Positions 1-11,112 of a stretch of 38,731 nucleotides of DNA are shown here, in pieces. Location of the stretch: assembly GCF_008802355.1 (NCBI RefSeq), contig NZ_VZRA01000011.1, positions 1 through 38,731 of the forward strand. The letters run 5' to 3'. The notes under the pieces are model-generated. The model was given only the letters and a program-made list of their open reading frames with translations. It was not told the origin of the DNA and ran no database searches. Both the position numbers and the translations under genes were made by a program. Position 1 is the stretch's first letter. Each line of letters begins with the position of its first letter. The DNA comes from Oryzomonas sagensis (GTDB lineage Bacteria > Desulfobacterota > Desulfuromonadia > Geobacterales > Pseudopelobacteraceae).

Positions 1-272
1 CGGCGACGGCCGCCTCGTTGACGGTAGCGATCTCCTCCTTTACGGCCAGCGACAACGTTGGCGTGACCGGCTATCTGGTAACGGAAGGCTCGACCGCGCC
101 ATCGGCCAGCGCCGGCGGGTGGAGCAGCACTGCTCCGACCTCGTTCACCTTCTCGGCCGCCGGCAGCAAGACCGCCTACGCCTGGGCCAAGGACGCGGCG
201 GGCAACGTCTCGGCCGCCAAGAGCGCCGGCGTGACCATCACCTTGCCGGATACGACCGCCCCGACCGTTTCA
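1..272 (+). repeat. Near-identical repeat copy A (pairs with 3245-3516)
   Basis: This segment aligns without gaps to 3245-3516 with about six mismatches by eye. Both lie in frame and encode the same Ig-like repeat in two different genes. The identity at silent sites is much higher than between the other copies of this domain, which suggests recent gene conversion or duplication. Confidence 0.8.
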
Positions 273-2000
273 ATAACAGCGCCTGCCGCAGGAAGTACCG
301 TTGGCGGTACGGTATCGGTCACCGCCAACGCCTCTGACAACGTAGGCGTAAGCAAGGTGGAGTTCTACGCCAACAATATACTGCAATCCAGCAGCAGTAC
401 GGCACCTTACGGTTTCAGTTGGAACACCGCCTCCGTCGCCAACGGCTCCTACACTCTCTCTGCCAAGGCCTACGACGCCGCCGGTAACGTCGGCCAGTCC
501 GCCAACATACTTGTTACGGTGAACAATACGGCAACGTCGTCTACCGGCACCCTTACCGCTGTTTTCGGTAATGCAAACGGTTCCAATTACCCCAATACGG
601 TCGAGGACACGTTTCTCAATATCAACACCGATGTCAACGCCTCGAACGTGGCGCTGAATACCTACACCTGGCCGGCAAATACCCCGGCCAATGCCATCCT
701 GATGAAGTGGGATGTCTCCGCCTTGCCGGCCAATGCCCAGATTCAGAGCGCCACACTCAATCTTAATTTGATTAGCAGCAGCGGAGATGCGTCGTACCAA
801 ATACCGGTATCAGAGATAATCAATAAACAACCGGTCATCGCCAAAAGCACCGGATACACCTATGACGGTACGAACCCCTGGACAGCCAGCAGTGTGCCGT
901 ACGGCGGTGTCCCCTTGGCGCAGTCCGATATCGCCCCTGCGGCTGATGCCCCTCTTATCGATCAAACGAATGGTTACAAGAGCTGGAATGTGACAAGCAT
1001 TGTCAAAGACTGGGTTGCCAATCCGGGCAACAATATGGGGCTGCTGCTGAATTCATCAAGCCTGGCCACCTCGGACAGTAGCCGGACATTTGCTTCCAGC
1101 GAAGCGGTTGACGCCACCCAAAGGCCACAGCTTGTCGTAACCTATACTCTGGCGTCCGATACCACGGCGCCGACGGTCGGCACCTTCACGATGCCGGCGA
1201 CGGCCACCTCCCAGACGGTAGCGATCTCCTCCTTCACGGCCAGCGACAACGTGGGCGTGACCGGATACCTGGTGACCGAAAGCGCCACCGCGCCTGCGGC
1301 CTCAGCCACCGGCTGGAGTGCCGGCGCCCCCACCTCGTTCACCTTCTCGGCCGCGGGCAGCAGGACCGCCTACGCTTGGGCCAAGGATGCCGCAGGCAAC
1401 GTCTCGGCCGCCAAGAGCAGCAGCGTCGTCATCACTCTACCCGATACCACGGCGCCGACGGTCGGCACCTTCACGATGCCGGCGACGGCCACCTCGTTGA
1501 CGGTAGCGATCTCCAGTTTCACGGCCAGCGACAACGTGGGCGTGACCGGGTACCTGGTGACCGAAAGCGCCACTGCACCTGCAGCCTCAGCCACCGGCTG
1601 GAGTGCCGGCGCACCCACTTCGTTCACCTTCTCGGCCGCGGGCAGCACGACCGCCTACGCTTGGGCCATGGATGCCGCGGGCAACGTCTCGGCCGCCAAG
1701 AGCAGCAGCGTCGCCATCACGCTGCCCGATACCACGCCGCCGACGGTAACCATCAGCTCACCCGCCAGCGGGGCAAAGGTAGGATCAAAGGTAACAATAA
1801 AGGCTTCCGCTTCAGATAACGTAGCGGTTACCAAGATGCAGCTTTACATAGACAGCGTGCTGAAAGCGACATCGAGCAGCAGCACCATAAGTTGGACCTG
1901 GAATAACTCCTCGTATTCCAGAGGATCCCATGTGATTCAGGTCAAGGCTTATGACGCAGCCAATAATTCTGGCTCACAGTCTATAACCGTGACGAAATAG
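3..2000 (+). CDS. Ig-like repeat / DNRLRE-domain surface protein, 5'-truncated by the window edge
   Basis: The frame is open at the window edge: the codons before the TTG at 18 already encode the repeat consensus (ATAAS), so the true start lies upstream. In order, numbering from the TTG at 18, the product has the end of an Ig-like repeat containing TVAISSFTASDNVGVTGYLV (residues 1-77), a bacterial Ig domain of the KVEFYANN...SYTLSAKAYDAAGNVGQS type (80-170), and a DNRLRE/disaggregatase-type module (about 178-382) with the typical DTFLNIN start, ALPANAQIQSATLNL centre and SWNVTSIVKDWV end. Two more copies of the first repeat (383-577) and a final Ig domain follow. There is no PEP-CTERM, dockerin or LPXTG tail; it ends in SQSITVTK. 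Inference: an extracellular or cell-surface structural or adhesive protein. The substrate is unknown. The repeats are nearly identical in DNA to those of the next gene. Confidence 0.75.
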   Translation, partial: ATAASLTVAISSFTASDNVGVTGYLVTEGSTAPSASAGGWSSTAPTSFTFSAAGSKTAYAWAKDAAGNVSAAKSAGVTITLPDTTAPTVSITAPAAGSTVGGTVSVTANASDNVGVSKVEFYANNILQSSSSTAPYGFSWNTASVANGSYTLSAKAYDAAGNVGQSANILVTVNNTATSSTGTLTAVFGNANGSNYPNTVEDTFLNINTDVNASNVALNTYTWPANTPANAILMKWDVSALPANAQIQSATLNLNLISSSGDASYQIPVSEIINKQPVIAKSTGYTYDGTNPWTASSVPYGGVPLAQSDIAPAADAPLIDQTNGYKSWNVTSIVKDWVANPGNNMGLLLNSSSLATSDSSRTFASSEAVDATQRPQLVVTYTLASDTTAPTVGTFTMPATATSQTVAISSFTASDNVGVTGYLVTESATAPAASATGWSAGAPTSFTFSAAGSRTAYAWAKDAAGNVSAAKSSSVVITLPDTTAPTVGTFTMPATATSLTVAISSFTASDNVGVTGYLVTESATAPAASATGWSAGAPTSFTFSAAGSTTAYAWAMDAAGNVSAAKSSSVAITLPDTTPPTVTISSPASGAKVGSKVTIKASASDNVAVTKMQLYIDSVLKATSSSSTISWTWNNSSYSRGSHVIQVKAYDAANNSGSQSITVTK

Positions 2001-2049: not shown

Positions 2050-2068
2050 GGAGTAAACGCCTTGTTTT

Positions 2069-2084
2069 TGTGACCATAGTCACA
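2069..2084 (+). promoter_or_regulatory. Perfect CRP-type palindrome
   Basis: The site reads TGTGACCATAGTCACA, an exact TGTGA-N6-TCACA match to the classical CRP consensus. A weak -10-like GATAAA at 2106-2111 would put a start near 2118 and the site at about -41.5 (class II activation), but this promoter assignment is inference. A Crp/Fnr protein with a matching recognition helix is encoded at 4893-5606. Confidence 0.6.
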
Positions 2085-2130
2085 TATTTATTGGTGACGT
2101 TCTGCGATAAAGGAACTACATAAAGAAGGG

Positions 2131-2228
2131 TACACGATAATACTAAACCATCCGCGAGGATGGGACGGAAAGCCTACAGGGTCTCATTGAGACAGCCGGG
2201 TCGCCGAAATACCAGAAGGTATATCGGT
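2131..2228 (+). ncRNA. GEMM-I riboswitch aptamer, predicted cyclic AMP-GMP (GEMM-Ib) type
   Basis: The aptamer shows the GEMM-I core: the AAACCATCC arm, a GCGA tetraloop, GGATGGGACGGAAAGCC, a second hairpin (GGGTCTC with GAGAC) and AGCCGGGTCGCCGA. It sits 38 bases before the start codon of the dockerin-domain protein. The base just before CTAAACC is A (2142), where canonical cyclic di-GMP binders have G. From published work on Geobacter GEMM-Ib riboswitches (Gm0970, GSU1761), A here marks selectivity for 3',3'-cyclic AMP-GMP. I recall that alignment from memory. The family and position are seen in the sequence; the ligand is inferred. Confidence 0.88.
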
Positions 2229-2240
2229 CCCGGCTTTTTT
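2194..2240 (+). terminator. Intrinsic terminator of the riboswitch expression platform
   Basis: A long hairpin pairs AGCCGGG (2194-2200) with CCCGGCT (2229-2235), with inner CCGA/TCGG and ATACC/GGTAT segments, and runs into a six-T tract (2235-2240). The 5' arm is part of the aptamer, so ligand binding and termination should be mutually exclusive. That is the arrangement of a transcriptional ON switch, as in known Geobacter members. Confidence 0.85.
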
Positions 2241-2265
2241 ATTGGCAAAAACTGGAGAACGCAAA

Positions 2266-3978
2266 ATGAGAACTGCTACATGGAAGAACACAGGAAATAA
2301 CTGGATTGGTGAGTCCCGATTGTTTTTGGTCAATATGCTCACGATGGTTTTCCTTGTCGCGGCCCATGCTACCTGTTTTGCCTCCAGTATAGTTCTCCAG
2401 TGGGATGCCGATACGGATCCGAGCGTGACCGGCTACAAGGTCTATTACCAGGCGGATTCCGCCACCCAGCCCTTTCAGGGGACCGGTGCCACCCAGGGCG
2501 CGGCCCCTCTCGATGTCCAGAGCCTGACCACCGCCACCATCACAGGACTGGACCCGGCCCATGCCTACTACTTTGCCGTGGTCGCCTATAACGCCTCCGG
2601 TGTCGAAAGCTCCTACTCGAATATCGCCACGGTCCCGGAATTGACCCCCCCGACCGTGTCCATCAGCTCTCCGGCCGCAAGTACGACGGTAAGCGGCACG
2701 GTTTCGGTCAATGCCGGCGCCAGCGACAACGTGGGGGTAACGAAGGTGGAGTTCTACGTGAACGGTGTTCTTAAGGCCACGGACACCGCGACCCCCTACG
2801 TGTATTCTTGGAATACCGCGGGGCTCGCCTCCGGCAGCTACACGCTGCAGGCCAAGGCCTATGATGCCGCCGGCAACGTGGGGCAATCCGGCGTTGTCCC
2901 GGTAACGGTTGCGGGCAGCGACACGACGGCCCCGACGGTAGCGGTGACGTCACCGGCCGCTGGTTCCGTGGTGAGCGGGACAGTAACCATCGCTGCCACT
3001 GCCAGTGATAATGTGGGAGTGAGCAGGGTTGAATTTTATGAGAATGGCGCTCTGCTGTATGCCGCCAATACCGCCCCGTACAGCTACAGTTGGAATACCG
3101 CCTCCATTGCCAACGGCAGCTATACCCTTTCCGCCAAGGCTTATGATGCCAGCGGCAACGTCGGGCAATCAGCGAACGTTTCCGTAACGGTCAATAACGT
3201 GGTTGCCGATACGACCGCCCCGACGGTTTCATCCTTCAGTATCCCGGCGACGGCCGCCTCGTTGACGGTAGCGATCTCCTCCTTTACGGCCAGCGACAAC
3301 GTTGGCGTGACCGGCTATCTGGTAACGGAAGGCTCGACCGCGCCATCGGCCAGCGCCGGCGGGTGGAGCAGCACGGCTCCGACCTCGTTCACCTTCTCGG
3401 CCGCCGGCAGCAAGACCGCCTACGCCTGGGCCAAGGACGCGGCGGGCAACGTCTCGGCCGCCAAGAGCGCCGGTGTGACCATCACCCTAGCGGATACGAC
3501 CGCCCCGACGGTTTCATCCTTCAGTATCCCCACGACGGCCACCGCGTTGACGGTCGCCATCTCCTCCTTTACGGCCAGCGATAACGTGGCGGTGACCGGC
3601 TATCTGGTAACGGAAAGCTCGACCGCGCCGTCGGCCAGCGCAACCGGGTGGAGCAGTACGGTTCCGACCTCGTTTACCTTCTCGGCTACCGGCAGCAAGA
3701 CCGCCTACGCCTGGGCCAAGGACGCCGCGGGTAACGTCTCGGCCGCCAAGAACGCCGGCGTTACGATTACTCTGCCGACCACGACAAAAAACTTTACCGT
3801 CAGTGACGCTTTATTGGCACTTAAAATAGCCGTGGGAAATGTCACACCGACCTCTACCCAAATATCGAGCCTGGACGTTGCTCCCGTGATCAACGGCCAG
3901 TCAGTTCCTGATGGTAAGATTGACACCGGTGACGTCGTCGTCATCATGTCAAAGATAGTTGGGAAAACCGTCTTGTAA
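2266..3978 (+). CDS. Secreted FN3 / Ig-like / dockerin-like domain protein under riboswitch control
   Basis: The start is the ATG at 2266, with GGAG at 2254-2257; a TTG at 2242 lies against the terminator T tract and has no ribosome binding site. The 570-residue product begins with a signal peptide (hydrophobic LFLVNMLTMVFLVAA, likely cut after CFA near residue 39). Then come an FN3 domain (41-123, GYKVYYQ...YYFAVVAYNASGVESSYSN), two bacterial Ig domains (about 125-310), two copies of the TVAISSFTASDN repeat (about 315-500) and a dockerin-like tail. The tail has a DALLALKIAVG helix and a calcium-loop-like PDGKIDTGDVVVIMSKIVG segment. Inference: an extracellular protein whose dockerin-like tail may dock on a cohesin-like partner. 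The neighbouring lipoprotein is a candidate. Its enzymatic or adhesive role is unknown. Confidence 0.8.
   Translation: MRTATWKNTGNNWIGESRLFLVNMLTMVFLVAAHATCFASSIVLQWDADTDPSVTGYKVYYQADSATQPFQGTGATQGAAPLDVQSLTTATITGLDPAHAYYFAVVAYNASGVESSYSNIATVPELTPPTVSISSPAASTTVSGTVSVNAGASDNVGVTKVEFYVNGVLKATDTATPYVYSWNTAGLASGSYTLQAKAYDAAGNVGQSGVVPVTVAGSDTTAPTVAVTSPAAGSVVSGTVTIAATASDNVGVSRVEFYENGALLYAANTAPYSYSWNTASIANGSYTLSAKAYDASGNVGQSANVSVTVNNVVADTTAPTVSSFSIPATAASLTVAISSFTASDNVGVTGYLVTEGSTAPSASAGGWSSTAPTSFTFSAAGSKTAYAWAKDAAGNVSAAKSAGVTITLADTTAPTVSSFSIPTTATALTVAISSFTASDNVAVTGYLVTESSTAPSASATGWSSTVPTSFTFSATGSKTAYAWAKDAAGNVSAAKNAGVTITLPTTTKNFTVSDALLALKIAVGNVTPTSTQISSLDVAPVINGQSVPDGKIDTGDVVVIMSKIVGKTVL
3245..3516 (+). 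repeat. Near-identical repeat copy B (pairs with 1-272)
   Basis: This is the second copy of the segment at 1-272, with about six mismatches in 272 bases. It encodes the first TVAISSF-type repeat of the dockerin-domain protein. Recombination between the copies would delete about 3.2 kb, including the riboswitch, and fuse the two genes in frame. Confidence 0.8.
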
Positions 3979-4015: not shown

Positions 4016-4050
4016 TGAAGGTGACTTTGAATTGGGTCACCTTCAATTTT
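4016..4050 (+). terminator. Intrinsic terminator after the dockerin-domain gene
   Basis: A perfect 10-bp stem (TGAAGGTGAC at 4016-4025 with GTCACCTTCA at 4036-4045) is followed by ATTTT. It lies 37 bases after the stop and before the lipoprotein's ribosome binding site, so the lipoprotein probably has its own promoter or receives reduced readthrough. Confidence 0.75.
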
Positions 4051-4072: not shown

Positions 4073-4837
4073 ATGCGGGTATTTAAAATAATGTCTGTTT
4101 TGATGACAATTCCGATTATGGTTATTTCGGGGTGTGGCGGTGGGGGAAGCGGCGGGGGAAACGGCGGGACAAGCGATACGACAGCTCCTGCGGTCACCGC
4201 TTTTTCGATGCCTTCTTCAGCTGCCTCTCTGACCGTATCGGTCTTAAGTTTTACGGCAACCGATAATGTCGGAGTAGTCGGGTACATGATCACCGAGAGT
4301 GCAACTCCACCTGTTGCCAGCGCTTCCGGCTGGAGCAGCACCGCCCCGCCCTCGTTCACTTTCACTACCGCCGGCAGCAAGACCGCCTACGCCTGGGCAA
4401 AGGATGCGTCCGGTAATATATCAAACAGTCTGATTGCTTCAGTCACGATTACTCAACAGTCAACTTTAACAACAAGTATCAGCGGAATTCCAGCAAATGC
4501 CTATTCTATTAAAGTAGTGTTAGATTTTACTAAAGCATCAGGTTACGACTTTGCTGGCTATATTGATTCAAATGGTCCCGTAAAATCATCTTATATTACT
4601 GCGTTAACTTCTTCAGGTATCGCTGACGCACATTATGACAGCGCAAATAAAACATTGACATTAGGTGTTGTCAGTTCCAATGCTATAAATGATGGCAATA
4701 TTATGAGCGTTCAGTTCCAAGCTGTTCCGGGATTTGACGCTACCCAGATTACTTCAACTGTTACAGAGATAAAAAACGGATCGGGCGTCTCATTGCCCAT
4801 TACTGGGGCAACAACCGTTTCAGAAACGGTTCAGTAA
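4073..4837 (+). CDS. Lipoprotein with Ig-like repeat and cohesin-like domain
   Basis: The ATG at 4073 follows AGGAG at 4061-4065. The 254-residue product has a lipoprotein signal peptide: MRVFKIM, a hydrophobic stretch and the lipobox ISGC, then a glycine-rich linker. One copy of the repeat found in the two upstream genes follows (about 35-125, DTTAPAVTAFSMPSS... to AYAWAKDASGN). The last 125 residues resemble a cohesin-type beta domain: IKVVLDFTKASGYDFAGY early on and a late ANKTLTLGVVSSNAINDG segment leading to VQFQAVPG. The cohesin call is by pattern only and is uncertain. The DNA encoding this domain is visibly more AT-rich than the repeat-coding part. Inference: a membrane-anchored protein, probably outer-membrane, that could bind dockerin-tailed proteins. 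Other beta-sandwich families remain possible. Confidence 0.65.
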   Translation: MRVFKIMSVLMTIPIMVISGCGGGGSGGGNGGTSDTTAPAVTAFSMPSSAASLTVSVLSFTATDNVGVVGYMITESATPPVASASGWSSTAPPSFTFTTAGSKTAYAWAKDASGNISNSLIASVTITQQSTLTTSISGIPANAYSIKVVLDFTKASGYDFAGYIDSNGPVKSSYITALTSSGIADAHYDSANKTLTLGVVSSNAINDGNIMSVQFQAVPGFDATQITSTVTEIKNGSGVSLPITGATTVSETVQ

Positions 4838-4892: not shown

Positions 4893-5606
4893 CTAATTTG
4901 CTGTCATTGTCTTGATGCGGAAGGTTTTTGTCAATAATATTGATTTGTTCTCTAAAGTTTGAATGATCGAATCTTTTTCCAGCTTATTCAAAATCCTCGT
5001 TACCGTCTCCCGTGCAACTGACGCATAACTGGCAATCTGCTGGTGCGTCAGTTTTGCATTGATGATGGTCCCCCGGTCGTCCATAACCCCGTACAAATCC
5101 TGCAATCTTTCAAGCACGGCCAGCACCCGGTGTTCGGCATTGTCGAAACTCAATATCTTGATCATCGCCCAGGAATCGCGGAGCCGGTCGCACAGCAGAC
5201 CTATTATCCTGTGGCGGGTCGCGTCGTTATTGAGAACGAACCGCTCAAAGTCTGATTTGGAAAGAAGCCCGATCTCCGCATCTTCGTAGGCAATAACGGT
5301 GGCTGGAGATGTCTTGCCGTCAAGGAGGGCCATTTCGCCGAAAAAGTCATTCTTCTTGTGGATGCTGATGATCTGCTCTTTGCCCTCTTCATTGATCTTG
5401 ACGACCCGCACCTTGCCGGAATAAACAAAATACATATAGTTTGCTGTATCTTCTTCAAAAAGCACTATCTGGTTTTTCGCATAGTGTTTCTTGACAATGA
5501 GGCTTTCAATCAGGCTGATCTCTGCCGCGGAAAGCCCTGAGAAGAAAGGGATATTCTTGATTATGTTGTTGTCCGGTTTCAGTCGTTGATTTGCTTGCCA
5601 GATCAT
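4893..5606 (-). CDS. Crp/Fnr family transcriptional regulator
   Basis: The 237-residue protein starts at the ATG at 5606, preceded on the - strand by GAGGT (5613-5617). Residues 20-135 form a cyclic-nucleotide-binding-type beta barrel (FFSGLSAAEISLIE, then FFGEMALLDG at 88-97). Residues 185-225 form the winged helix-turn-helix LTHQQIASYASVARETVTRI. The recognition helix RETVTR (199-204) keeps the Arg-Glu-x-x-x-Arg pattern with which E. coli CRP reads TGTGA. In the effector pocket the usual PRSAT is TSPAT (99-103), so the phosphate-contacting arginine is missing and cAMP binding is doubtful. No FNR-type cysteine cluster is seen near the N-terminus. The gene converges on the lipoprotein gene. 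A perfect TGTGA-N6-TCACA site lies at 2069-2084. Its targets and ligand are unknown. Confidence 0.85.
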   Translation of the reverse strand: MIWQANQRLKPDNNIIKNIPFFSGLSAAEISLIESLIVKKHYAKNQIVLFEEDTANYMYFVYSGKVRVVKINEEGKEQIISIHKKNDFFGEMALLDGKTSPATVIAYEDAEIGLLSKSDFERFVLNNDATRHRIIGLLCDRLRDSWAMIKILSFDNAEHRVLAVLERLQDLYGVMDDRGTIINAKLTHQQIASYASVARETVTRILNKLEKDSIIQTLENKSILLTKTFRIKTMTAN

Positions 5607-7597: not shown

Positions 7598-9688
7598 ATG
7601 CTTCATATGAGTGATGCAATCATTTCCATAGCGGCAATCATTACATTGCTGGCCGGCGGAGGGTATGCTCTTTATAGTGACCGCTCCCGCGCCGGCCTGT
7701 TTATCTTTGCCGCCCTGACCGCCACCGCCCTGCTGGAACTGTTCGACATGCTGTCACTTGCCGTACCGGCAGATGCCTTTTTCTGGAAAAAGTGTGCGTT
7801 AATGGCTGAATCCCTCCTGCCCCTGTTCTGGATCCTCTGCAGTCTCACGTTTGCCCGTCAGCCCGGTCCCCGGAAGACCGATCCCATGGCCAAGGTGGCC
7901 ATCGTTGCGGTATTCCTGCTCTCAGCACTATTCCAAATGTACCCCCTGAATGCTTTTTTTTATGCCCCGGATTTCCCGGGCGAGCGACTTCTCTTTCTCG
8001 GTAATGCCGGTTTTTTCTTTTATATCGGGGTGATGACCTGCTTGGTGGTTGCGCTTGTCAATTTTGAAACAACGCTCACCAATGCCTCTCCCAATGCCCT
8101 CTGGAGGGTCAAGTTTGAACTCATTGGGCTTGGCACCATACTGGCTGTGCAGATATTCTATTTCAGTCAGGCTTTGCTCTACCGATCACTGAATATGAAT
8201 TACCTGCCGCTGCGCTCCTTCATGTATTTGGTCGCTGCGGCGCTGATGGCCTATTCGCTCGTGTGCCGTCGTGGCAATGTCCGCATCCAGGTTTCCCGGC
8301 AGGTCGCTTTCAAATCCGTTGTCCTGTGTGCCGTGGGGGGCTATCTGCTCGCGCTCGGCATTTTGGGTGAGGGGATGAAATATTGGGGGGGCGCCTTCCC
8401 GCGCACGATGTCCATCACCCTCGCATTTCTGGCCGGGATAGCCCTCCTGATCCTGCTGCTCTCCGAGAGGGTCAAGCGGGAGGTCAAAGTCGTACTGCAC
8501 AAAAATTTTTACCAGAACAAATATGACTACAGGACCCAGTGGCTCCGCTTTACCGAACAGCTTTCCACCTCCAGATCGGGCGAAGAGCTCCTTCAGCGGA
8601 TACTTGCAGCCTACTGCGACATCTTCGGGATCGGCGGGGGCGCCCTGTTTCTCTACGAAGAAGAACAGGCAGGATACTGCGCAACGGCATATTATGAAAT
8701 GGAGCCTATTCCCGGGATTATCAGCCCGGATAACTCACTTGTTGGGTTCATGAAAAAATCCGGCTGGGTCATCAATGTGAAGGATGGCAATCTGGACGGT
8801 GACGGTGGAACGCATTCTTTTTTAGAGAGGAATTGCATTTCCTTTATCATACCGCTCTTCGACGGTGAGCGGCTCATCGGGTTCATCACCTTGGGGCGGG
8901 TAATCAAAGAAAATGAAGAATATATTTACGAAGACTACGATTTGATGAAAACCATTGCCCGTCAGGCTTCCCAAGCCATACTGCATCAGCGGCTTTCTGA
9001 CGAGATCGCGCAGGCGCGCGAGATGGAGGCCATCGGCAATGTCGCCACATTCGTTGTGCATGATCTGAAAAACCTTGTGGCAACCCTTTCGCTTATCGTC
9101 GACAATGCGACCAAGTACATGCAAAACCCTGATTTTCAGAAGGATATGCTGACATCATTGAACAATACGGCAGAAAAAATGCGGATTTTGATCGGCAGGT
9201 TGAAAAACCTGGGAGACAAGAGCCTGTTGAACCTGCAGACTGTCGATCTTAGGGAGTTGGTAGACAGGACCGCCCGCATGGTGGCGGGCGAAAAAATCAC
9301 GGTGTCGGGAACCACCGAAATGGTTACTGCGGATGGCGAAGAGGTTCAGAAGGTCGTCATGAATCTGCTTATTAATGCTGTGGAAGCGTCGAATCCGGAA
9401 CAGCCGATACGTGCCGAGATCGGCAACAATGGGGGAGCGGCCTTTATTCGGATTGCCGATCAGGGGTGCGGGATGTCGGATCATTATATGCGCACAAAAT
9501 TGTTCAAACCTTTTACGACAACCAAGAAACAGGGGCTCGGCATTGGCCTGTATCAATGTCGCAAAATAGTTGAGAACCATGGTGGGAGGATCGAGGTCAG
9601 CAGCCTGGAAGGCAGCGGCTCGGTTTTTACGGTGTGGTTTCCTGCGGGTACAGAAATGAGGCCGGGGACTTGTGTTGATTCCGTGTAA
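7598..9688 (+). CDS. prsK: PEP-CTERM system sensor histidine kinase PrsK
   Basis: A 696-residue membrane histidine kinase. Residues 1-290 hold about eight hydrophobic membrane segments. A linker with KNFYQNKYDYRTQWLRF, characteristic of PrsK, leads into a GAF domain (about 325-455), then the kinase core. This has phosphoacceptor His488 in FVVHDLKNLVATLS, an N box MNLLINAVEAS, a G1 box ADQGCGMS and an F/G2 region PFTTTKKQGLGIGLYQ. It is expected to phosphorylate PrsR, whose gene starts 14 bases downstream. From family knowledge, PrsK/PrsR pairs occur with exosortase/PEP-CTERM exopolysaccharide loci. No exosortase gene or PEP-CTERM protein lies in this window. An ATG three codons in (7607) is an alternative start. 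The signal sensed is unknown. Confidence 0.9.
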   Translation: MLHMSDAIISIAAIITLLAGGGYALYSDRSRAGLFIFAALTATALLELFDMLSLAVPADAFFWKKCALMAESLLPLFWILCSLTFARQPGPRKTDPMAKVAIVAVFLLSALFQMYPLNAFFYAPDFPGERLLFLGNAGFFFYIGVMTCLVVALVNFETTLTNASPNALWRVKFELIGLGTILAVQIFYFSQALLYRSLNMNYLPLRSFMYLVAAALMAYSLVCRRGNVRIQVSRQVAFKSVVLCAVGGYLLALGILGEGMKYWGGAFPRTMSITLAFLAGIALLILLLSERVKREVKVVLHKNFYQNKYDYRTQWLRFTEQLSTSRSGEELLQRILAAYCDIFGIGGGALFLYEEEQAGYCATAYYEMEPIPGIISPDNSLVGFMKKSGWVINVKDGNLDGDGGTHSFLERNCISFIIPLFDGERLIGFITLGRVIKENEEYIYEDYDLMKTIARQASQAILHQRLSDEIAQAREMEAIGNVATFVVHDLKNLVATLSLIVDNATKYMQNPDFQKDMLTSLNNTAEKMRILIGRLKNLGDKSLLNLQTVDLRELVDRTARMVAGEKITVSGTTEMVTADGEEVQKVVMNLLINAVEASNPEQPIRAEIGNNGGAAFIRIADQGCGMSDHYMRTKLFKPFTTTKKQGLGIGLYQCRKIVENHGGRIEVSSLEGSGSVFTVWFPAGTEMRPGTCVDSV

Positions 9689-9702
9689 CGAGGAATAACT
9701 TA

Positions 9703-11112
9703 ATGGAAAACATCCTGATCGTCGATGATAATCCGGATATCCGCCAGCAGCTTAAGTGGGGATTAGGCGAGGAGTACGAAATACTGCTGGCCGGTGACGC
9801 TTCTCAAGGCCTTGCCGCCTTCAAAAAGCACCAGCCGAATGTCGTGATCCTCGACCTGGGACTTCCCCCGCACGAGGATTCCTCTGTCGAGGGGTTTCGC
9901 TGTCTGGCCGAGATGCTCGACCACAATCCGAACGCCAAAATAATCATGCTTACCGGCAATAGCGAACGGGAGAACGCTTTGCAAGCCATCCAGATGGGGG
10001 CCTATGATTTTTACCCCAAACCGCCGGTCCTCAGTGAACTCAAAGTAATTATCGGGCGCGCCTTTCACCTGGCCAACATCGAAGAACAGAACCGCGCCCT
10101 GCAGCGTTCTCTTGAGCAAAAAACAACGGTTGCCGGCGGAATAATCGGCCAATGCGCTGAGATGCAGATGGTGTACGCCACGATTAGAAAGGTCGCGTCG
10201 TCCGATGTGCCTGTCTTGATAACCGGGGGAAGCGGTACGGGAAAGGAGTTGGTTGCGCGCGCAATTCAGGAAGCGAGTCTCCGCAAGAATGGCCCGTTCA
10301 TCCCAATCAACTGCGGGGCGATTCCGGAAAACCTCCTGGAGTCAGAGCTCTTCGGGCATGAGAAGGGAGCGTTCACCGGTGCCCATGCCACGGTCCAGGG
10401 GAAGCTCCAATATGCCCATAAAGGAACGCTATTTCTGGATGAAATTGGCGAACTTCCGGTCAACCTCCAGGTCAAGCTGCTTCGCTTTCTTCAGGAAGGG
10501 ACCATTCAGCGGGTTGGCGGCAGGGAGGATATCCGGGTGGATGCTCGAACGATTTGCGCCACCAATGTGGATATCGCCAAAGCCATCAACGAAGGCAAGT
10601 TCAGGGAAGATCTGTACTACCGGATAGGCGTCATCACGATTGCCTTGCCGCCGCTTCGGGAACGGGGGGACGACATCCTCCTGCTTGCTCATTATTATCT
10701 GAGACTGTTCAATGACGAACACAAAAAGAGGGTACGCCGTTTTGGCGCGGCCGCCATAAACTTCCTCAAGAGCTATGAATGGCCCGGAAATGTGCGTGAA
10801 CTGAGAAACCGTATCCAGCGGGCCGTCATTATGAGCGATTTCACATCCATCGAGCCGGCTGATCTCGGTTGCGGCAGCAATCTGCCGGTCCAGCCCGACC
10901 AGCCCGAAGAGCCGCGGGATGTCATGTCTCTCAGGGATGCCCGGGACAAGGCCGAGCGGGAGGTCATCTCGGCGGCGATTGAGCGCCAACAGGGGAACAT
11001 CCTGAAAGCGGCCGAGGAATTGGAGATCAGCCGGCCGACGCTGTATGATTTGTTGAAGAAGCATAATTTTTTTGATGGGGGTCGAAAGGGTGACATGGGG
11101 GTAAGCGAATAG
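9703..11112 (+). CDS. prsR: PEP-CTERM system response regulator PrsR, sigma-54 activator
   Basis: A 469-residue NtrC-type activator. The receiver domain (1-125) has acidic Asp8/Asp9, phosphoacceptor Asp51 in VVILDLGLPP and Lys106 in YPKPP. The AAA+ domain has Walker A GGSGTGKE (175-182), the sigma-54 contact loop GAFTGA (222-227) and Walker B LFLDEIGE (243-250), with FREDLYYRI further on. A Fis-type helix-turn-helix lies near the C-terminus (QGNILKAAEELEISRPTLYD). The extra PPHEDSS insert after the phosphorylation site is typical of PrsR. The ATG at 9703 follows GAGGA. The gene is cotranscribed with prsK. It should activate sigma-54 promoters of exopolysaccharide or PEP-CTERM genes; no clear -24/-12 promoter was found in the window. 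Confidence 0.92.
   Translation: MENILIVDDNPDIRQQLKWGLGEEYEILLAGDASQGLAAFKKHQPNVVILDLGLPPHEDSSVEGFRCLAEMLDHNPNAKIIMLTGNSERENALQAIQMGAYDFYPKPPVLSELKVIIGRAFHLANIEEQNRALQRSLEQKTTVAGGIIGQCAEMQMVYATIRKVASSDVPVLITGGSGTGKELVARAIQEASLRKNGPFIPINCGAIPENLLESELFGHEKGAFTGAHATVQGKLQYAHKGTLFLDEIGELPVNLQVKLLRFLQEGTIQRVGGREDIRVDARTICATNVDIAKAINEGKFREDLYYRIGVITIALPPLRERGDDILLLAHYYLRLFNDEHKKRVRRFGAAAINFLKSYEWPGNVRELRNRIQRAVIMSDFTSIEPADLGCGSNLPVQPDQPEEPRDVMSLRDARDKAEREVISAAIERQQGNILKAAEELEISRPTLYDLLKKHNFFDGGRKGDMGVSE

Follow-up and report, generated by a model that had tools for sequence, protein, structure and literature searches.

What decides when Oryzomonas sagensis makes the secreted FN3/Ig protein encoded near the start of the contig analysed here (contig C11, taken whole at 38.7 kb and called the window below, from a genome of 3.61 Mb)? 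The gene is preceded by a leader with the appearance of a cyclic dinucleotide riboswitch, and the leader in turn by a perfect palindrome of the CRP type, so that the RNA could act alone or together with a regulator bound at the promoter. Our main reading, to which we assign a probability of roughly 0.7, is a two-input switch in which a CRP-type activator and a cyclic dinucleotide are both needed for expression of this protein with a dockerin-like tail. The features on which the argument turns are, in window coordinates:

3 to 2000, plus strand: 3' part of the preceding paralogue, which encodes an FN3/Ig/DNRLRE protein
2069 to 2084, palindromic: perfect CRP-type palindrome TGTGACCATAGTCACA, 47 bp before the aptamer start
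2106 to 2111, plus strand: predicted -10 hexamer GATAAA, 21 bp after the box, with a predicted transcript start at about 2118
2129 to 2213, plus strand: GEMM-I aptamer of the GEMM-Ib type, including the closing helix 2129-2132/2210-2213 (Rfam match 2132-2208)
2142, plus strand: A at position 20 in Vc2 numbering, the base of cGAMP-type aptamers, preceding CTAAACC
2194 to 2240, plus strand: intrinsic terminator sharing 3' strands of the aptamer helices and ending in six T
2266 to 3978, plus strand: target gene (570 aa), with a secretion signal by inspection, FN3 and Ig (Big_7) repeats
3766 to 3978, plus strand: dockerin-like domain at the C-terminus of the target; Pfam Dockerin_1 does not detect it
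4017 to 4050, plus strand: hairpin with a weak T run, separating the target from the next gene
4073 to 4837, plus strand: lipoprotein-like gene (254 aa) with an Ig-type repeat, its C-terminal 128 aa possibly cohesin-like
4893 to 5606, minus strand: CRP/FNR-family regulator with recognition helix ARETVTR, the candidate activator
7598 to 11112, plus strand: PrsK/PrsR two-component pair of XrtA/PEP-CTERM clusters (TIGR02916, TIGR02915)

The first-pass annotation had proposed a complete GEMM-I aptamer in this leader and had named a covariance-model search against Rfam as the way to check it. That search (cmscan, Rfam 15) bears the proposal out: RF01051 (c-di-GMP-I) matches 2132-2208 on the plus strand with 45.7 bits against a gathering score of 35 (E 5.9e-6), and it is the sole match at gathering score within the window. 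The start given in the annotation, 2131, has to be moved, as it lies inside the 5' strand (2129-2132) of the closing helix. None of 200 shuffled versions of the leader (2125-2245) folds as well as the leader itself (z -4.1). Covariation was examined in 49 GEMM-Ib-type aptamers that we chose from this genome and its relatives, which share a short P3 hairpin and of which 48 carry A20 and one (L003) G20. Standard pairs fill 97.1% of the 1,078 cells of the 22-pair structure, and pairing falls to 36-47% when the structure is slid by one to three columns. Both sides change in 7 of the 22 pairs, a number reached by 1 of 500 shuffles, and the covariation score was reached by none of the 500; further pair types, one of the five measures used on these aptamers, are not exceptional (99 of 500 shuffles equal the count). 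The closing helix shows the clearest covariation (pair 6-88: GC 21, AU 20, GU 7, other 1), and 87.2% of its cells are paired, the figure for the whole structure being higher.

The A at 2142 before CTAAACC, also named in that annotation, occupies a column for which the Rfam consensus gives G. We take this column to be position 20 of Vc2, where A marks aptamers of the cGAMP type and G those of the c-di-GMP type. The assignment fits the equation of G11 of the Cd1 riboswitch with G20 of Vc2 (PMC9262584).

A terminator sharing a strand with the aptamer had been described as well, and the computed fold agrees. Its stem (2194-2235) has 17 pairs and an energy of -27.1 kcal/mol on its own, followed by the T run at 2235-2240; AGCCGGG (2194-2200) pairs with CCCGGCU (2229-2235), and eight bases that are paired in the aptamer (2196, 2197, 2199, 2200 and 2210-2213) are claimed by the terminator. 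As the terminator needs strands of the aptamer, the two folds are mutually exclusive, and the ligand should permit read-through. The riboswitch should hence be a transcriptional ON switch, with ligand predicted to turn the gene on. The same ON logic has been described for the pilM riboswitch (PMC9262584).

How closely is the palindrome tied to riboswitches of this kind? The genome holds 20 RF01051 elements, 15 with A20 and 5 with G20 (L001, L002, L004, L006 and, on a GEMM-Ib-like scaffold, L003). Our own GEMM-I model, R1, built from this genome, adds one more A20 element (C7:1356-1432, L021; 75.8 bits), which lies below the Rfam gathering score and stands in tandem with L011. TGTGA-N6-TCACA occurs six times in the genome and not at all in the reverse-read control. 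Five of the six copies lie 47-88 bp before A20 riboswitches (the window element, L005, L007, and two before L011), for which the chance is about 4e-14, a figure to be read with the window and L011 cassettes counted as duplicates and not as independent cases. When spacers from N0 to N12 were scanned, only N6 yielded boxes (4 of 21 elements). The remaining perfect box (G000:C1:1407761) has no GEMM-I nearby. A GGDEF gene beyond L005 (L244 2260-3954, Hpt/response-regulator/GGDEF) was considered as the target of that element and rejected: the two are about 0.6 kb apart, a GC-rich inverted repeat, judged by eye, lies between them, and the gene is apparently a separate unit.

The pairing recurs in relatives. 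In 39 genomes, this one included, we found 92 boxes and examined the neighbourhood of each (75 and a further 17). GEMM-I, called with R1 at E <= 0.1, lies 44-154 bp downstream of 39 of the 92 (one being a weak 22.6-bit match) and within 44-59 bp for 30 of them; by chance, about 0.16 boxes among the first 75 should precede GEMM-I. A recheck of eighteen loci with Rfam put the R1-only C7 element and its counterpart in G002 (a relative; G numbers denote genomes) below the gathering score. A second set was assembled blind to box and riboswitch, from 21 of 43 loci found by their CRP-family protein alone (L160-L180, at least 50% identity; 403,847 bases), the other 22, at no more than 38% identity, being left out. 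All eight perfect boxes in these loci lie 45-89 bp before GEMM-I, six of them being already among the 92. In the stretch covered, GEMM-I is present at 12 of the 21 loci and absent at 9.

The box is also held at a fixed distance from the promoter. We took 43 distinct promoters with a box of 9 or 10 matches out of 10 located 40-62 bp before GEMM-I; the hexamer played no part in their choice, and they are related by descent. The match to TATAAT peaks exactly 21 bp after the box, with a mean of 3.47 of 6 matches and four or more matches in 27 of the 43, compared with 2.65 at the next best distance and a maximum of 2.74 in 2,000 shuffles. The mean is 3.51 when boxes of 8 are added (47 promoters) and 3.29 with perfect boxes only (31). 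An earlier run on 34 promoters, which omitted some non-duplicate boxes of 8 or 9 out of 10, gave 3.59 at the same distance. The box thus occupies the -35 region, its centre 29.5 bp upstream of the -10 hexamer. Class II CRP activators sit with the centre of their box at about -41.5, and a 21-bp spacing places the present box there if the hexamer spans -12 to -7. The distance from box to hexamer thus fits a predicted class II CRP promoter, with the start position deduced from the hexamer.

These counts bear directly on the alternative that survives best, namely that the leader is a plain GEMM-Ib riboswitch and the palindrome belongs to a general CRP- or HcpR-like regulon, its nearness signifying no dedicated partnership. 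The box does have other uses too, as 53 of the 92 in the 39 genomes have no GEMM-I nearby, and 12 of the 16 A20 elements of this genome (15 by Rfam and the R1-only one) lack a box of 9 or 10 matches, several of these promoters having a TTGACA-like -35 by eye; against it stand the five of six boxes in this genome and all eight in the CRP-chosen loci that lie before GEMM-I, and the fixed spacing from box to -10. We consider this alternative unlikely, while granting it real weight.

The identity of the cyclic dinucleotide is the second point at issue. The combination of A20 with a short P3 hairpin (GTCTC-N3-GAGAC) seen in the window aptamer characterises 15 of the 20 GEMM-I elements that reach Rfam level in this genome. 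GEMM-Ib riboswitches, Hypr synthases and ON action are established in Geobacter (PMC6456294, PMC8835794, PMC9262584), and serine at the substrate position of GGDEF domains is the mark of Hypr enzymes (PMC6456294, PMC8835794). Among 24 GGDEF hits in this genome, the substrate position could be read by pattern in 19, and three of these (L032, L033 and L036, carrying GHLVGS) have serine. With its A20 riboswitches and Ser-type GGDEF proteins, the genome is equipped with this type of sensor and also with plausible synthases. The first-pass reading of the leader as a cyclic AMP-GMP riboswitch is accordingly upheld as a prediction, and for the window aptamer we infer 3',3'-cGAMP as the likeliest ligand, with a Hypr GGDEF protein as its source. 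It could be argued that the main ligand is cyclic di-GMP, or that both dinucleotides are recognised, in spite of the A20, since the base at position 20 is treated as a factor in selectivity and not as a hard filter (PMC9262584), and since in a D. acetoxidans aptamer the same change raised cGAMP affinity and perhaps slightly lowered that for c-di-GMP (PMC9481103). We regard this as improbable, as published values for two Geobacter GEMM-Ib aptamers are about 1,200- and 1,600-fold in favour of cGAMP and as Hypr-type proteins are encoded in the genome itself. One element of this genome, L003 1501-1576 (C2:254256), combines a GEMM-Ib scaffold with G20 and has a 9-of-10 box upstream, making it a candidate for a change of ligand choice.

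Which protein would bind the box? The recognition helix of E. coli CRP has the pattern RETVxR, which the ARETVTR of the 4893-5606 product resembles, as does the RETVSR in PDB entry 4ev0; helix and site, the latter (TGTGA-N6-TCACA) having its midpoint 29.5 bp upstream of the -10 hexamer, are both like those of class II CRP promoters. In contrast to classical CRP, the protein seems, by its motif, to lack the arginine of the cAMP pocket. It is 97% identical to its counterpart in Oryzomonas japonica. A box-GEMM pair at 44-59 bp is present in 16 of the 24 genomes with an orthologue (at least 45% identity) and in none of the 15 without (p 2.5e-5), although the range of distances was chosen with the data in view and the association is confounded by descent; if pairs up to 154 bp apart are admitted, 17 of 24 genomes have one versus 1 of 15 (G024). 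G024 and G001 have 9-of-10 boxes before riboswitches, yet only CRP-family proteins of 34-36% identity. As a paralogue in this genome, L241, has the same RETVTR helix, the 4893-5606 product is a candidate for the activator and not its fixed identity, although we infer that it is most likely the protein that binds 2069-2084. Autoregulation of the CRP gene was considered and rejected, the best box upstream of it having 6 of 10 matches. That the CRP-family protein is instead a repressor here, with the riboswitch relieving a second block, appears quite improbable: geometry alone is no proof of activation, but the box fills the -35 region with its centre at about -41.5, the class II activator position.

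A two-input switch would then work as follows. A CRP-family activator, most likely the 4893-5606 product, would bind the palindrome and recruit RNA polymerase in class II geometry (box centre at about -41.5), so that transcription would start near 2118. The nascent leader would fold either as the terminator or as the GEMM-Ib aptamer, the latter stabilised by the cyclic dinucleotide (probably 3',3'-cGAMP from a Hypr GGDEF protein); with ligand, transcription would enter the gene, and without it would stop at about 2240. In this rice-paddy type of iron reducer, production of certain surface proteins would then seem to need agreement between two signals. So far, the cGAMP riboswitches of metal reducers have been treated as what switches their genes. 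Should some of them also depend on a CRP-type activator, these surface proteins would require two independent signals, the ligand of the CRP-family protein would become a direct question, and a set of promoters would be ready for testing it.

The genomic setting was reconstructed across a contig break. On its minus strand, contig C7 ends in a 95% copy of window 2060-3157; this end corresponds to window position 3157, and the first bases of the window to about position 3240. The copy runs into what must be the 5' portion of the paralogue whose remaining 3' portion (3-2000) opens the window, and this 5' portion comes with riboswitch L011 and two boxes. In G002 an intact 1101-aa counterpart of the paralogue is followed by a riboswitch and the counterpart of the target. 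C7 (minus) very probably adjoins C11 (plus), the break falling in near-identical repeats of one gene, as the gene order in G002 also suggests. The order would be: riboswitch L007 and a 380-aa protein; the R1-only element with L011 and the long FN3/Ig/DNRLRE protein; the window riboswitch and the target; the lipoprotein-like gene; and the convergent CRP-family gene. Glycosyltransferases and an O-antigen ligase-like protein lie upstream on C7 and PrsK and PrsR downstream in the window, and the locus is a polysaccharide cluster of the XrtA/PEP-CTERM type.

Among relatives the riboswitch class varies. From 82 FN3-domain hits, 52 were kept after dropping overlapping loci (L091 1778 of G026 was dropped as well, though not a duplicate), and 2 of these have no upstream sequence; GEMM-I lies within 900 bp upstream in 40 of the remaining 50, a list that is biased because some loci were fetched for their box or riboswitch. 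A20 elements precede homologues in Oryzomonas, Geomonas and others, and G20 elements do so in G008, G012, G019 and G027. Rfam assigns three G20 elements, both of those in G027 and one of G004 (L206, L226), to c-di-GMP-I-UAU (RF03168). A20 followed by G20 in tandem precedes FN3 genes in G001, G008, G026, G029 and G036, and a tandem of the A20-G20 type with a perfect box is also found in G006. The tandems, most of them upstream of FN3 proteins, are, in coordinates of the respective loci:

L092 1243-1591, L094 1348-1586 and L091 1304-1590: A20-then-G20 tandems
L210 1171-1446, L213 1163-1446 and L248 1566-1840: A20-then-G20 tandems

It is possible that such tandems act as two-messenger gates. The logic-gate table of a review on tandem riboswitches has, in the part available, no entry for cGAMP with c-di-GMP, and the 347 c-di-GMP-I doublets given there may include tandems of this sort (PMC9481103). 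In G030 and G034, 9-of-10 boxes without GEMM-I precede homologues. In G004, of the same genus, the gene beside an 89%-identical CRP gene matches the last 353 residues of the target (79% identical) and has no FN3 by Pfam; at this locus a tandem of G20 elements follows a perfect box. The riboswitch class thus varies between relatives while the box recurs; exchange of one class for another is suggested by position, the FN3 tree (33 domains, 92 columns) being too poorly resolved to tell it from replacement of paralogues.

From this we put forward, tentatively and at somewhat below even odds, a two-tier adhesin module of the Geobacterales, comprising: a dedicated CRP-type activator; a class II promoter with fixed spacing between box and -10; and an exchangeable RNA sensor, which may be of the A20 cGAMP type, of the G20 c-di-GMP type, a tandem of both, or none. 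If this is true, relatives rewire the same adhesin genes between second messengers with the promoter untouched, and nature would here have run an experiment in moving a gene from one messenger to another, by swapping the class of riboswitch while the promoter stays constant.

Parts of the arrangement have precedents. In its A20, its fold, its aptamer-excluding terminator, its predicted ON action, its surface or electron-transfer type of target and its tandem copies, the system is like the Geobacter GEMM-Ib riboswitches, such as those of pilM and pgcA; it differs in having a CRP-type box at fixed spacing in the promoter, and in the available excerpts of PMC6456294, PMC8835794 and PMC9262584 no mention of such a box at GEMM-Ib promoters was seen. 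GSU1945, an FN3 domain protein, is listed as GEMM-I-controlled in G. sulfurreducens (PMC10599522, PMC8835794), so that the same kind of target is found under the same kind of riboswitch; in locus-tag order it adjoins GSU1943 and GSU1944, exosortase substrates with a PEP motif. Like the CRP-type box, the run of similar cassettes and the CRP-family gene nearby, this record was absent from the first-pass annotation. The closest parallel in having activation by CRP-cAMP, a GEMM-I leader (the putative Vc1) and a gene for a surface-binding protein is Vibrio cholerae gbpA. There c-di-GMP inhibits, independently of the Vc1 riboswitch (PMC4545359), whereas the window riboswitch is predicted to be a second ON input. 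The riboswitch class and the kind of target are hence already known, and its coupling to a CRP-type class II promoter appears to be the new part; among the open-licence papers retrieved, judged by titles and the beginnings of abstracts, none describes this arrangement.

As to the target itself, it had been called a secreted FN3/Ig/dockerin-like protein. Pfam finds fn3 and Big_7, as that description requires, while the dockerin part stands as a predicted fold and fails in Pfam, Dockerin_1 having no match within the window. The last 70 residues, aligned with 24 relatives, show a conserved DVAP-NG-PDGKID-GDVIVIL pattern; a first loop, GDINGDSTTN, is present in the relative L063 and absent from the window protein. 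The AlphaFold2 model of this domain has a pLDDT of 89.6, and its best four Foldseek matches are dockerin/scaffoldin complexes of C. thermocellum, but with E values of 0.41-1.9. The tail is thus predicted to fold like a dockerin, as in cellulosomal dockerin-cohesin pairs, and is unlike cellulosomal dockerins in its degenerate calcium loops, in the lack of a Pfam call, and in a cohesin partner that is putative. A profile of the dockerin-like domain run against solved structures gave one chance hit (E 0.86) and was set aside.

The suggested partner is the product of 4073-4837, whose Ig-type repeat is 53% identical to target residues 310-460. Pfam finds no cohesin in it, nor does the genome search at E 0.1; hhalign gives E 0.015 for cohesin but a probability of 2.9%. 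Its model is of moderate confidence (pLDDT 65.7) and retrieves mostly Ig-like folds with Foldseek, a cohesin standing at rank 25 with the highest probability (0.97) among the best 50 rows. A cohesin identity was therefore not adopted and is kept as a lead only. Elsewhere in the genome, cohesin domains do lie near dockerin-like domains, at L046/L051 (C1:544660-545336, where the dockerin match of L051 is below the Pfam cut-off) and at L048 (C1:1632798), and these are possible non-cellulosomal cohesin-dockerin pairs.
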